Assembly: GCA_017620815.1 (NCBI GenBank)
Contig: JAGAUI010000014.1
Coordinates: forward strand, 1-63,314
DNA: 63,314 bases
Reading direction: 5' to 3'
Source of the DNA: Flavobacteriales bacterium
GTDB lineage: Bacteria > Bacteroidota > Bacteroidia > Flavobacteriales > UBA1820
The position numbers and the translations under genes are program-made. Shown here in pieces: positions 60,723-63,269 of this stretch; positions within the stretch are counted from its first letter, which is position 1, and each line of letters opens with the position of its first letter. The notes under the pieces were generated by a model. That model ran no database searches and was not told the DNA's origin. It saw only the letters and a list, made by a program, of their open reading frames with translations.

Positions 60723-61988
60723 CTATTTATAGAGTTGACCTTTTACATATGTAGCTACAGCCTTACCATATAGTTCACGTCCCAAAAATGCCGAGTTTTT
60801 GGATAGAGAGACTATGTCTTCTTTCTTAAAACTCCATGTTGTATCTGGGAGGAACATAGTGATTTCGGCTGCTCCGCCCTCTACTATAGTAGGCACCGCC
60901 ACACCAAAACGACGACGAGGATTTATACTTATAAGGTCCACCATTTTTTCCAGTGATATACTGTCTTTAAGAACAGTCCACGCTGCTCCGAATGCAGTCT
61001 GAAGACCTAGCGTACCATATGCAGCACGGTCATATTCACATTTTTTATCTTCTATATCCACAGGTGTATGGTCTGATGCTATACAGCACACAACGTCTTT
61101 TTCTACCGCACGTTTCATAGCCTCTATATGACGTTCTGTACGCAATGGAGGCATTACTTTATATCTAGTATCAAATTCCTTGAGATTTTCATCTGAAAGC
61201 AGTAGATGGTGTGGTGTAATGCTGCACGTTACATCTACTCCGCGTTCTTGTGCTTCGGCTATCATACGCAACGCATCTGGAGTAGTAACACAGGCTATAT
61301 GTAATGAAGCCTCTGAATAGTCTGCCAAGAATATATCACGAGCCACTGCCAAATCTTCGGCTACGTCTGGTATGCCGTGTAGTCCTAGAGTGGTACTTAC
61401 TACGCCTTCGTGCATTACACCTTGGTGCATCATCACACGGTCCATAGGAGTGGTGATAGTAAGGAAGCCTTGTGCCCCGTTATATTCCAATACAAGATTT
61501 TCTATGAGGTTATTTTCTATCTGACGGCCATCGCCATAAGCTACTGCTCCGCCTTGTGCCATATCATAGCTTTCGGCCATTGCCTTACCTGCCGCACCTA
61601 CAGTGGCCGTACCCACAGGATAGATATGGATAGGAAGTCTTGTAGAACGGGATATGAGATATTCTACCTTCTGACGGCTATCTATAGCACTCTGACGGTG
61701 TGATGAAAGAGCCACAGCGGTAAAACCTCCTGCCTGTGCAGCAGCTGCTCCACTCTCTAGGGTTTCGGCTTCTTCATATGCTGGTTCGCCAAACTTACAC
61801 GCCGTATCAAACCAACCGGGACTCACATGCAGTCCCTCCATTTCTATGATTTCGTCTGCAAGAGCAGGATTTATTTCATCTTCTATGGAACTTATACGTC
61901 CCGAAGTGATAAGAATGTCTTTTTTCTGTCCATTAAAAGAGCTGGTAGAATCTATTATAACTGCCTTTTTTATAAGAATATCCATCAT
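60723..61988 (-). CDS. Dihydroorotase homologue lacking the HxH metal-binding motif
   Basis: The 421-residue amidohydrolase-fold protein is homologous to class I dihydroorotase throughout (GEPAYEEAETLESGAAAAQAGGFTAVAL, EGVVSTTLGLHGIP, VTCSITPHHLLLSDENLKEFD, CCIASDHTPVDIEDKKCEYDRA). The DxHxH motif reads D61-T-A63-C-K65, so both first-metal histidines are gone. Some Bacteroidota carry such forms and they are usually annotated pyrC; they may be PyrX-like non-catalytic partners of aspartate carbamoyltransferase, or use another metal site. A tandem ATG gives 421 or 420 residues. It leads the run that ends with aroA. Confidence 0.85.
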   Translation of the reverse strand: MMDILIKKAVIIDSTSSFNGQKKDILITSGRISSIEDEINPALADEIIEMEGLHVSPGWFDTACKFGEPAYEEAETLESGAAAAQAGGFTAVALSSHRQSAIDSRQKVEYLISRSTRLPIHIYPVGTATVGAAGKAMAESYDMAQGGAVAYGDGRQIENNLIENLVLEYNGAQGFLTITTPMDRVMMHQGVMHEGVVSTTLGLHGIPDVAEDLAVARDIFLADYSEASLHIACVTTPDALRMIAEAQERGVDVTCSITPHHLLLSDENLKEFDTRYKVMPPLRTERHIEAMKRAVEKDVVCCIASDHTPVDIEDKKCEYDRAAYGTLGLQTAFGAAWTVLKDSISLEKMVDLISINPRRRFGVAVPTIVEGGAAEITMFLPDTTWSFKKEDIVSLSKNSAFLGRELYGKAVATYVKGQLYK

Positions 61989-62015
61989 AGCGACACAAAA
62001 ATTTATTTAACGCTC

Positions 62016-62023
62016 CAAATATA
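62016..62023 (-). promoter_or_regulatory. Putative -7 element for the pyrC-like/aroA operon
   Basis: On the minus strand, TATATTTG (plus 62016-62023) lies 28 bases before the start codon. Confidence 0.5.
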
Positions 62024-62046
62024 ACCAATACTTGGATAAGTATTTT

Positions 62047-62054
62047 TACCTTTG
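62047..62054 (+). promoter_or_regulatory. Putative -7 element for the mini-methyltransferase-like gene
   Basis: TACCTTTG matches TAnnTTTG and lies 47 bases before the ATG at 62102. It is divergent from the pyrC-like promoter 24 bases away. Confidence 0.5.
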
Positions 62055-62101
62055 AGGAGTTTTTTTGACTTTTGTAGCAAAATTTATTTAAACATCAGAA
62101 A

Positions 62102-62521
62102 ATGAGCCTCTATAGTATATACTCATATATCTTTTACCTATGTCAATCGCGTAGCGAATACTATGTACATTCGCCTTTTGTATATTCTGTGATGCAAAAT
62201 TGCATAAGAGAGCACAGCATTTTCCATATAGGAGAGGCTCATCGTCTATCTGAAAGGATAAAAAAACATCACCTCACATCTGCCATGCCCATTAGGATAA
62301 TAGATAATGACACCGATATAGTATCTTACATCAACTCCACTACTCCTCCCGATGTCATTCTCATCATAAAAAAACCTCACTTCTCTCGTCATAGAGAAAG
62401 ACTATTCTCCACTCTATGCCAGAGAGAGGACATAACGCTATCCATAGATACATTCTTTAATGGGATTATTTTCCCTGTGAGGGACATGAAAAAAGAACAT
62501 TTTGTCCTTAACTACTTTTAG
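62102..62521 (+). CDS. Short protein matching the two ends of a class I SAM-methyltransferase family
   Basis: The 139-residue protein begins with RSEYYVHSPFVYSVMQNCI (about residues 17-35). It ends with VILIIKKPHFSRHRERLF and ITLSIDTFFNGIIFPV, then KKEHFVLNYF. These are, from memory, the start and end of a Bacteroidota class I methyltransferase family of about 230-260 residues. The glycine-rich SAM loop (LEIGTGxG) and the strands between are missing. The frame is open and the ends are well preserved, so it looks like an internal deletion that left a conserved remnant rather than fresh decay. Catalysis is not expected. Function unknown. Confidence 0.7.
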   Translation: MSLYSIYSYIFYLCQSRSEYYVHSPFVYSVMQNCIREHSIFHIGEAHRLSERIKKHHLTSAMPIRIIDNDTDIVSYINSTTPPDVILIIKKPHFSRHRERLFSTLCQREDITLSIDTFFNGIIFPVRDMKKEHFVLNYF

Positions 62522-62588
62522 AATTTCTACAGCCTGTTTATTGTCTTTTTTTCATTAGATTTATAAGTATAACTCCAACCTTATGCTT

Positions 62589-63269
62589 ATGAAACGATTT
62601 CTTTTTATCTGTTTATCATTTCTTTTCACGTTGAATCTTTTTGGTCAAAGACTCAATAGTGTGTTTCTATCATCCCTACGACTAGCCGATATGCCACTCT
62701 ATTATGCTGTCCCCTCACAAGCCCAAGACGCATTTGGTCGAGCTATCAAGGTAGAGACACAAACTGTCCCACAGAACGGCCCTTATGATGGCATATATCC
62801 CTATGCCACTGCCGACCCATACGGTGCTTTGTACGGATTCTATCCTTACGGCGGGTTTTACGGGTATAACGATGCTTATCCCTACTGGGGGACATACAGT
62901 GGACCTTGGGGGGCAAGCGTGCTGTACACATACATCATGATGTATCCTCATATGGTTCTATATTTTGACCAAGGCTCCACCGGGGCTCCACAATACCTCT
63001 CCTGTGCCAATGTTTACAGTTCTTCCTACCCGCTGCACATAGGAGCTTCAGACAGCGTTGCTGTGGGAGATAGTCTATCGATACTGGAACGGTTGTTCCC
63101 TCTTTCATCTTCCACGGCACTATCCCGTCACGGAGGCACTTACCCTCCGTCTTTCAAGGTAATAGTAAAGGCTACATCTGGTGAAGGACGTACAGAAGAA
63201 AATGCCAGAATAGTATTTGTCATCAATGACAAAAAGAGAATTGCGGCCATACAGATAAATCTATACTAG
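62589..63269 (+). CDS. Tyr/Gly/Pro-rich secreted protein of unknown function
   Basis: The protein is 226 residues from the ATG at 62589; an in-frame ATG lies two codons earlier. The signal peptide is about 1-18 (FTLNLFGQ). A segment at about 65-110 is rich in Tyr, Gly, Pro and Trp (YGALYGFYPYGGFYGYND, YPYWGTYSGPWG). A strand-rich C-terminal part follows (PSFKVIVKATSGEGRTEENARIVFVIND). Such Y/G-rich tracts are common in surface or matrix proteins but are not a family signature. It follows the mini-methyltransferase gene by 67 bases and precedes a palindromic terminator. No homologue comes to mind. Confidence 0.72.
   Translation: MKRFLFICLSFLFTLNLFGQRLNSVFLSSLRLADMPLYYAVPSQAQDAFGRAIKVETQTVPQNGPYDGIYPYATADPYGALYGFYPYGGFYGYNDAYPYWGTYSGPWGASVLYTYIMMYPHMVLYFDQGSTGAPQYLSCANVYSSSYPLHIGASDSVAVGDSLSILERLFPLSSSTALSRHGGTYPPSFKVIVKATSGEGRTEENARIVFVINDKKRIAAIQINLY

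Follow-up and report, generated by a model that had tools for sequence, protein, structure and literature searches.

The window analysed here, a stretch of 63,314 nucleotides, is contig 27 of a draft Flavobacteriales genome of 42 contigs (1.73 Mb, 99.5% complete). An open reading frame on its forward strand (62102–62521) begins with ATG and runs intact through 139 codons, the clean open frame that the earlier note had described. Its product is related to a Methyltransf_24 protein of Bacteroidota but lacks the core. On the 5' side it is adjoined, in all four genomes of the genus, by the divergent dihydroorotase gene pyrC (60723–61988, reverse strand), identified by NCBIfam. The 3' neighbor (62583–63269, forward strand) encodes a 228-residue Tyr/Gly-rich protein with a signal-peptide-like N-terminus and no match in Pfam or NCBIfam. 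This neighbor is shared by the genome of the window (G000), G001 and G002; the G003 contig stops upstream of the corresponding position. The intergenic stretch between pyrC and the 139-residue gene (61989–62101) is nearly identical to that of G002, with 97% identity across 137 bases, the first 20 bases of the coding sequence among them, in contrast to the synonymous divergence within the gene itself (dS ≈1.06). The stretch contains a perfect 7-bp inverted repeat, AATACTT/AAGTATT, at 62027–62044, followed at 62047–62054 by TACCTTTG, which resembles TAnnTTTG, the consensus of the Bacteroidota −7 element. It is possibly a shared regulatory site, and a candidate promoter of the gene's own, as the earlier note had it, is plausible.

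The window protein had no significant match in Pfam or NCBIfam. The top Pfam entry, PF12744 (E = 0.047), fell far under the cut-off, no Methyltransf_24 match reached the gathering score, and neither the window protein nor the coreless or shortened relatives L045, L037 and L041 matched any Pfam family below E = 0.01. The full-length relatives form a Bacteroidota family of ≈258-residue class I methyltransferases, and in the genome search recognizable relatives, many of them 205–280 residues long, were found in more distant Flavobacteriales as well. Their landmarks are an N-terminal HSPFVY, DFGAGS, motif I (ELGTSLG), FDGNH, DDIHWS and an end of the form TIDLFxxGIVFFRKEQxKEHFxIR. Two full-length relatives tested matched Methyltransf_24 (PF13578) with E-values of 3.7e-12 and 1.2e-16, and scores of 47.5 and 62 bits against a cut-off of 26.3. 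When searched against the PDB, the full-length profile matched O-methyltransferases of the TrmR/YrrM/COMT group across the core (best E = 2.4e-14), and the AF2 model of full-length L190 (pLDDT 87.5), which has ten strand segments, retrieved the same group with Foldseek (best E = 2.7e-10). The matched proteins, the tRNA 5-hydroxyuridine methyltransferase TrmR/YrrM and COMT-type O-methyltransferases (PDB 5zw3, 3dul and 7cvu), thus resemble the core of the full-length relatives in both sequence and fold; in sequence, the matches fall chiefly on the region that is missing from the window protein, with the HSPFVY segment outside. The window protein shares its N- and C-terminal motifs with the full-length PF13578 proteins, but lacks their SAM-binding half. 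It scored 125 bits against profile A1, which itself includes the window protein. With the end motifs present and in the same order, descent from the HSPFVY/KEHF methyltransferase family is shown at the level of the sequence.

Alignment with the full-length Bacteroidota homologs confirmed that the ends were conserved and the core columns lost. We considered all columns at least 80% conserved in 40 full-length proteins and scored them in 105 coreless proteins, leaving out L109, L086, L103, L105, L178, L047, the intermediate L089 and rows without an HSPF-like motif. The conserved residue was retained by half or more of the coreless proteins in 6 of the 7 N-terminal columns, 2 of the 38 core columns and 9 of the 14 C-terminal columns; for the window protein itself, the counts were 5/7, 2/38 and 7/14. 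This retention at the ends, with 2/38 in the core, indicates that the ends were retained and the SAM-binding part is gone, in agreement with the earlier description of a methyltransferase reduced to its ends.

The kept N-terminal segment (residues 1–40; 62102–62221, forward strand) is predicted to form two helices and carries HSPFVY (codons at 62168–62185), in which H, S, P and F are 99–100% identical among the 105 coreless proteins. An HSPF-like pattern had served to choose these rows, but of the short rows only the fragments L086 and L105 lacked it. In the region that follows (62222–62350, forward strand), the ≈170 residues of the full-length proteins are replaced by ≈43, predicted to form a helix, a short strand and a helix, without motif I, DFGAGS or DGNH. 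The kept C-terminal segment (residues 84–139; 62351–62518, forward strand) contains the predicted β5, a helix, the β6 hairpin and β7, and carries IDxFxxG and KEHF. Residues D237, G242, K252 and F255 (L063 numbering) are retained in the window protein and in 92–96% of the 105 coreless proteins, and H23, S24, D116 and K131 (window numbering) are conserved nearly everywhere. The window protein has neither motif I, the glycine loop for SAM, nor the acidic residues downstream of it, their columns being gapped or replaced. The alignment thus shows that what was lost or replaced is the SAM-binding half: DFGAGS, motif I, the β2–β3 region, DGNH and DDIH.

An AF2 model of the window protein, based on an alignment of 57 sequences, had a mean pLDDT of 89.2 and a pTM of 0.84, with pLDDT values of 75–79 at residues 41–60. 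Helices were predicted at residues 3–15, 25–35, 46–56, 70–78 and 96–106, and the only strands at residues 64–67, 86–90, 113–116, 120–124 and 132–136. The model does not contain a seven-strand Rossmann-like sheet. It consists of three helices and a β-α-β5-α-β6-β7 unit, which means that approximately half of the Rossmann fold would survive. The earlier statement that only the ends remain is therefore correct for the ends themselves, but more than the ends appears to have been retained. The kept pieces are predicted to fold together as one compact 139-residue domain. The coreless profile matched no PDB sequence, Foldseek with the short model returned no PDB match below E = 0.001, and neither profile nor fold searches gave a clear match to a solved structure. 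Small α-β domains of the SepF and Smr type have a similar arrangement (VIA-align Z = 4–5), but this Z is at noise level and there is no common sequence, and we do not claim kinship. We also considered a membrane-binding, amphipathic first helix. In the genus, its hydrophobic moment was reached by just 3, 7 and 22 of 500 shuffles. In eight proteins from other lineages, however, 48–391 of 500 shuffles reached the moment, and membrane binding is therefore not supported.

The genome search found the coreless gene in all four genus genomes, the copies being, apart from the window's own, 81%, 42% and 35% identical to it. The protein is 139 residues long in G000, G001 and G002, and the G003 copy (35% identity) is coreless up to the end of its contig. 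The same short form was thus found in related genomes, a check that the earlier note had proposed. Between G000 and G002 (81% identical, dS = 1.06), dN/dS by the Nei–Gojobori method was 0.106 for the whole gene, indicative of purifying selection, and decay was rejected on this value. By part, dN/dS was 0.025 for residues 1–42, 0.217 for residues 43–81 and 0.106 for the last 58 codons. In a comparison of 16 pairs by the same method, whole-gene dN/dS was 0.1–0.3 in 11; the exceptions included Capnocytophaga L142/L176 (0.42) and three pairs with saturated dS, while the value of 0.98 for L127/L128 resulted from just five differences and is not meaningful. The middle part evolved fast, with ω = 0.2–0.5 in several of the 16 pairs. 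These values and the unbroken frames show the 139-residue gene to be intact and constrained.

Judged from the sequences recovered, core loss spans the Bacteroidia and extends beyond the genus of the window. Short forms are carried by Maribacter, Flagellimonas/Allomuricauda, Arenibacter, Croceitalea, Kriegella, Pricia, Aquimarina, Capnocytophaga, Polaribacter, Ochrovirga, Aequorivita, Sediminibacterium, some Flavobacterium and members of unnamed families. Outside the Flavobacteriales but within the class, families f17 (G407), f18 (G421), f20 (G442) and f25 (G608, G615) also had shortened forms, with full-length members of the HSPFVY/KEHF family beside them in f17 and f18. The length of the coreless proteins varied by lineage from ≈127 to ≈230 residues, the shortest being ≈127–137 residues (L139, L161, L163). 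Profile A1 had matches in 300 of 393 Flavobacteriales genomes at E = 1e-3, generic O-methyltransferases among them, and the coreless profile in 147 of the 393 at 1e-5; by hand count among the matches listed, the frame was shortened or lacked the motifs in ≈35 genomes and was full-length in most of the rest. Of the best 80 of 330 confirmed places in a scan of named genomes, which was biased by its coreless query, 65 were short (<212 residues) and 15 longer. A length control with generic O-methyltransferases (listed frames ≈212–250 residues) was likewise biased, since coreless versions of these could not have matched the profile. Intermediates between full and coreless forms exist (L178, L089), as does the reverse case: L069 and L081 (family f11) and L076 (f8) retain the core, while the HSPF end and much of the KEHF end are lost or changed, from which it follows that the ends are not indispensable to every member. 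In L086 (G338, genus g3), a full-length gene is split across two frames, perhaps by decay or by a sequencing error. Among the f6 genomes listed, which we infer to be Chryseobacterium-like, the coreless profile found no member apart from a weak match in G351. In contrast, L172, from a Chryseobacterium gleum record, is a motif-less member nearest to full-length forms from Flavobacteriaceae; this bin may be mislabelled. In the literature that we covered on pseudo-methyltransferases, on loss of SAM-binding or catalytic domains and on repeated loss, with subscription papers mostly outside its scope, we recognized nothing as the HSPFVY/KEHF family.

In many other lineages, the gene occupies a common slot, in the order ABC-F ATPase, the gene, a LolD-like ATPase and/or PduO, and SecA. 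This slot is typical but not diagnostic of the family. An ABC-F gene within two genes upstream or a PduO gene within four downstream was found at 86 of 109 short-labelled loci, of which three (L086, L105 and L178) are fragments or intermediates, and at 26 of 51 full-labelled loci. Coreless forms of these lineages thus sit in the slot of the full-length PF13578 proteins, which argues that the gene was shortened in place. The genus of the window lies outside this arrangement: its gene sits between pyrC and the gene for the 228-residue protein, and PduO and SecA are elsewhere in the window genome. The upstream neighbor in the slot belongs with the EttA/Uup-type ABC-F ATPases and is not an MsbA-like exporter. 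A dependence on PduO was also rejected: the f6 genomes G008, G021, G032 and G074 have PduO, at least the first three without the coreless gene, and G395 and G407 carry the coreless gene with no PduO match. In L044–L059 and many of L111–L137 (the Maribacter group and relatives), the gene for the lipoprotein N-acyltransferase Lnb lies directly 5' of ABC-F and is itself preceded by a pssA-like gene.

The number of core losses was estimated on a tree of SecA. Of the SecA sequences from 116 loci or genomes, 25 were dropped before counting, mostly near-copies from the Maribacter group but also the full-length L180 and L188, leaving 91 (31 full, 58 eroded and 2 unlabelled). On this tree, which was built by a quick method and has several long branches flagged, there were at least 16 changes between the full and eroded states, 12 of them forced by starred branches, compared to a mean of 25.9 changes when the labels were shuffled. 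Most of these changes would be losses if a deleted core cannot be regained. Eroded and full forms that share gene neighbors were also neighbors on the tree: the eroded L077/L078 lay near the full forms L063/L064, the eroded L137 with the full forms L149/L089, and the eroded L134 with the full form L072. The tree of the ends alone (91 columns) was poorly resolved and had 16 changes, three of them forced.

We considered the possibility that a single ancient coreless paralog, or transfer between lineages, had given rise to the short forms instead of repeated core loss. The trees of the ends are compatible with this: in AU tests, a single coreless clade was not rejected (p = 0.218 for all 40 coreless rows), and tests of 12 lineage pairs gave p = 0.161–0.877. 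Moreover, in most lineages the top BLAST match of the coreless protein was a coreless protein from another lineage, a result that fits a common origin but is also favored by gap costs. However, full and coreless forms share one gene slot, no genome had two family members among the matches listed, intermediates exist, and the coreless proteins differ in length from lineage to lineage. The Flavobacterium proteins L077 and L078, furthermore, group with full-length Flavobacterium forms on the ends alone (a starred fork) and have the full-length L064 as their top match, at 176 and 174 bits, compared to 134 and 127 bits for the best coreless protein of another lineage. L172 and L140 also had a full-length protein as their top match, and together with L077/L078, L134 and L137 they are the best cases of loss in place. 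On balance, a single origin seems unlikely to us, and one old coreless form that was sorted or transferred is a less likely history than repeated loss. The losses are apparently independent, which trees of the termini cannot confirm.

The window protein is probably a pseudoenzyme derived from the Methyltransf_24/O-methyltransferase-like family, with its kept ends serving as a putative docking domain. If the kept face was the surface on which the target of the ancestor docked, then the ancestor would have combined docking with methyl transfer as separable functions, and many lineages would have dropped the latter and retained the former. The docking face would be made up of HSPF at the start of helix 2 and, on the C-terminal hairpin, of IDxFxxG and KEHF. 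Its target, whether protein, RNA or ligand, would be one that the full-length ancestor had bound before. Recurrence of the same cut-down form across many related lineages suggests that the kept ends probably have a job of their own. That the ends account for the whole function of the family is contradicted by L069, L081 and L076, which retain the core without the HSPF end, and by the f6 genomes listed, which apart from one weak match lack the gene. More tentatively, with the odds somewhat against it, the family as a whole may consist of a widely kept non-catalytic end-domain (HSPF plus the C-terminal hairpin) and a dispensable core that was deleted in place in at least a dozen lineages, the genus of the window being among the shortest. 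No partner, ligand or phenotype was found for the coreless protein, and the conserved neighbors of other lineages do not adjoin the gene in this genus; the role suggested in the earlier note, binding of the former partner or substrate, is a putative one. The ABC-F neighbor hints at translation and the LolD-like neighbor at the envelope, both as candidate links.

Other explanations of the short protein were weighed against this docking domain. A non-catalytic subunit, attached to some other cellular methyltransferase and activating it, would have a precedent in the trypanosome prozyme TbPRMT1 PRO, which, as described in PMC10211241, stabilizes TbPRMT1 ENZ and promotes its activity. Like the window protein, for which this is deduced from its sequence, the prozyme described there is methyltransferase-derived and without catalysis; it has an altered Rossmann fold without one helix and a known active partner, whereas approximately half of the fold is gone in the window protein. 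The window genome does encode a generic O-methyltransferase-like protein (G000 C33, a 221-residue frame), but this is a member of another family, whose match to the profile is confined to the core part, and the matches listed include no genome with a second family member that could serve as the partner. We consider such a subunit rather unlikely. It is more doubtful still that the protein remains catalytic, through an activity that is new or needs no cofactor and is carried by the conserved polar residues of the kept face: H23, S24, D116 and K131 are indeed retained nearly everywhere, but no known active site was recognized and there was no significant fold match. The fast middle part and the apparent lack of the family in f6, one weak match aside, might point to relaxed selection and a remnant that is about to be lost altogether. 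Such a remnant is, however, very improbable given the low ω of the whole gene and especially of its N-terminal part, the unbroken frame in each of the four genomes of the genus (in one, the copy is truncated by the contig end), the retention of the same residues in 105 coreless proteins of many lineages and the compact predicted fold. A deletion introduced into a full-length gene by assembly or sequencing, for which nothing speaks beyond the draft status of the genome, is hardly conceivable, because G001 and G002 have the same length and the G003 copy is coreless up to its contig end; the check for a missing internal segment that the earlier note had proposed thus revealed no assembly deletion.

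The window protein is, by its motifs, one of many coreless descendants of a methyltransferase family. Pseudoenzymes are mostly known as proteins that retain their fold in full and have lost a few residues. In the coreless proteins, a Rossmann enzyme has lost the half that binds the cofactor, the remainder still seems to fold, and this has apparently recurred within one phylum. Pseudoenzymes as such are already known; the interest of the coreless family lies in how much was deleted and in the fact that this has apparently happened repeatedly. If the losses were independent, they would amount to natural repeat experiments that separate methyltransferase catalysis from binding, and the coreless forms make a hidden second function testable. 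If the two-function reading is true, the end-domain would be an undescribed protein domain, and its partner could be linked to the ribosome, as the ABC-F neighbor may indicate, or to the envelope.
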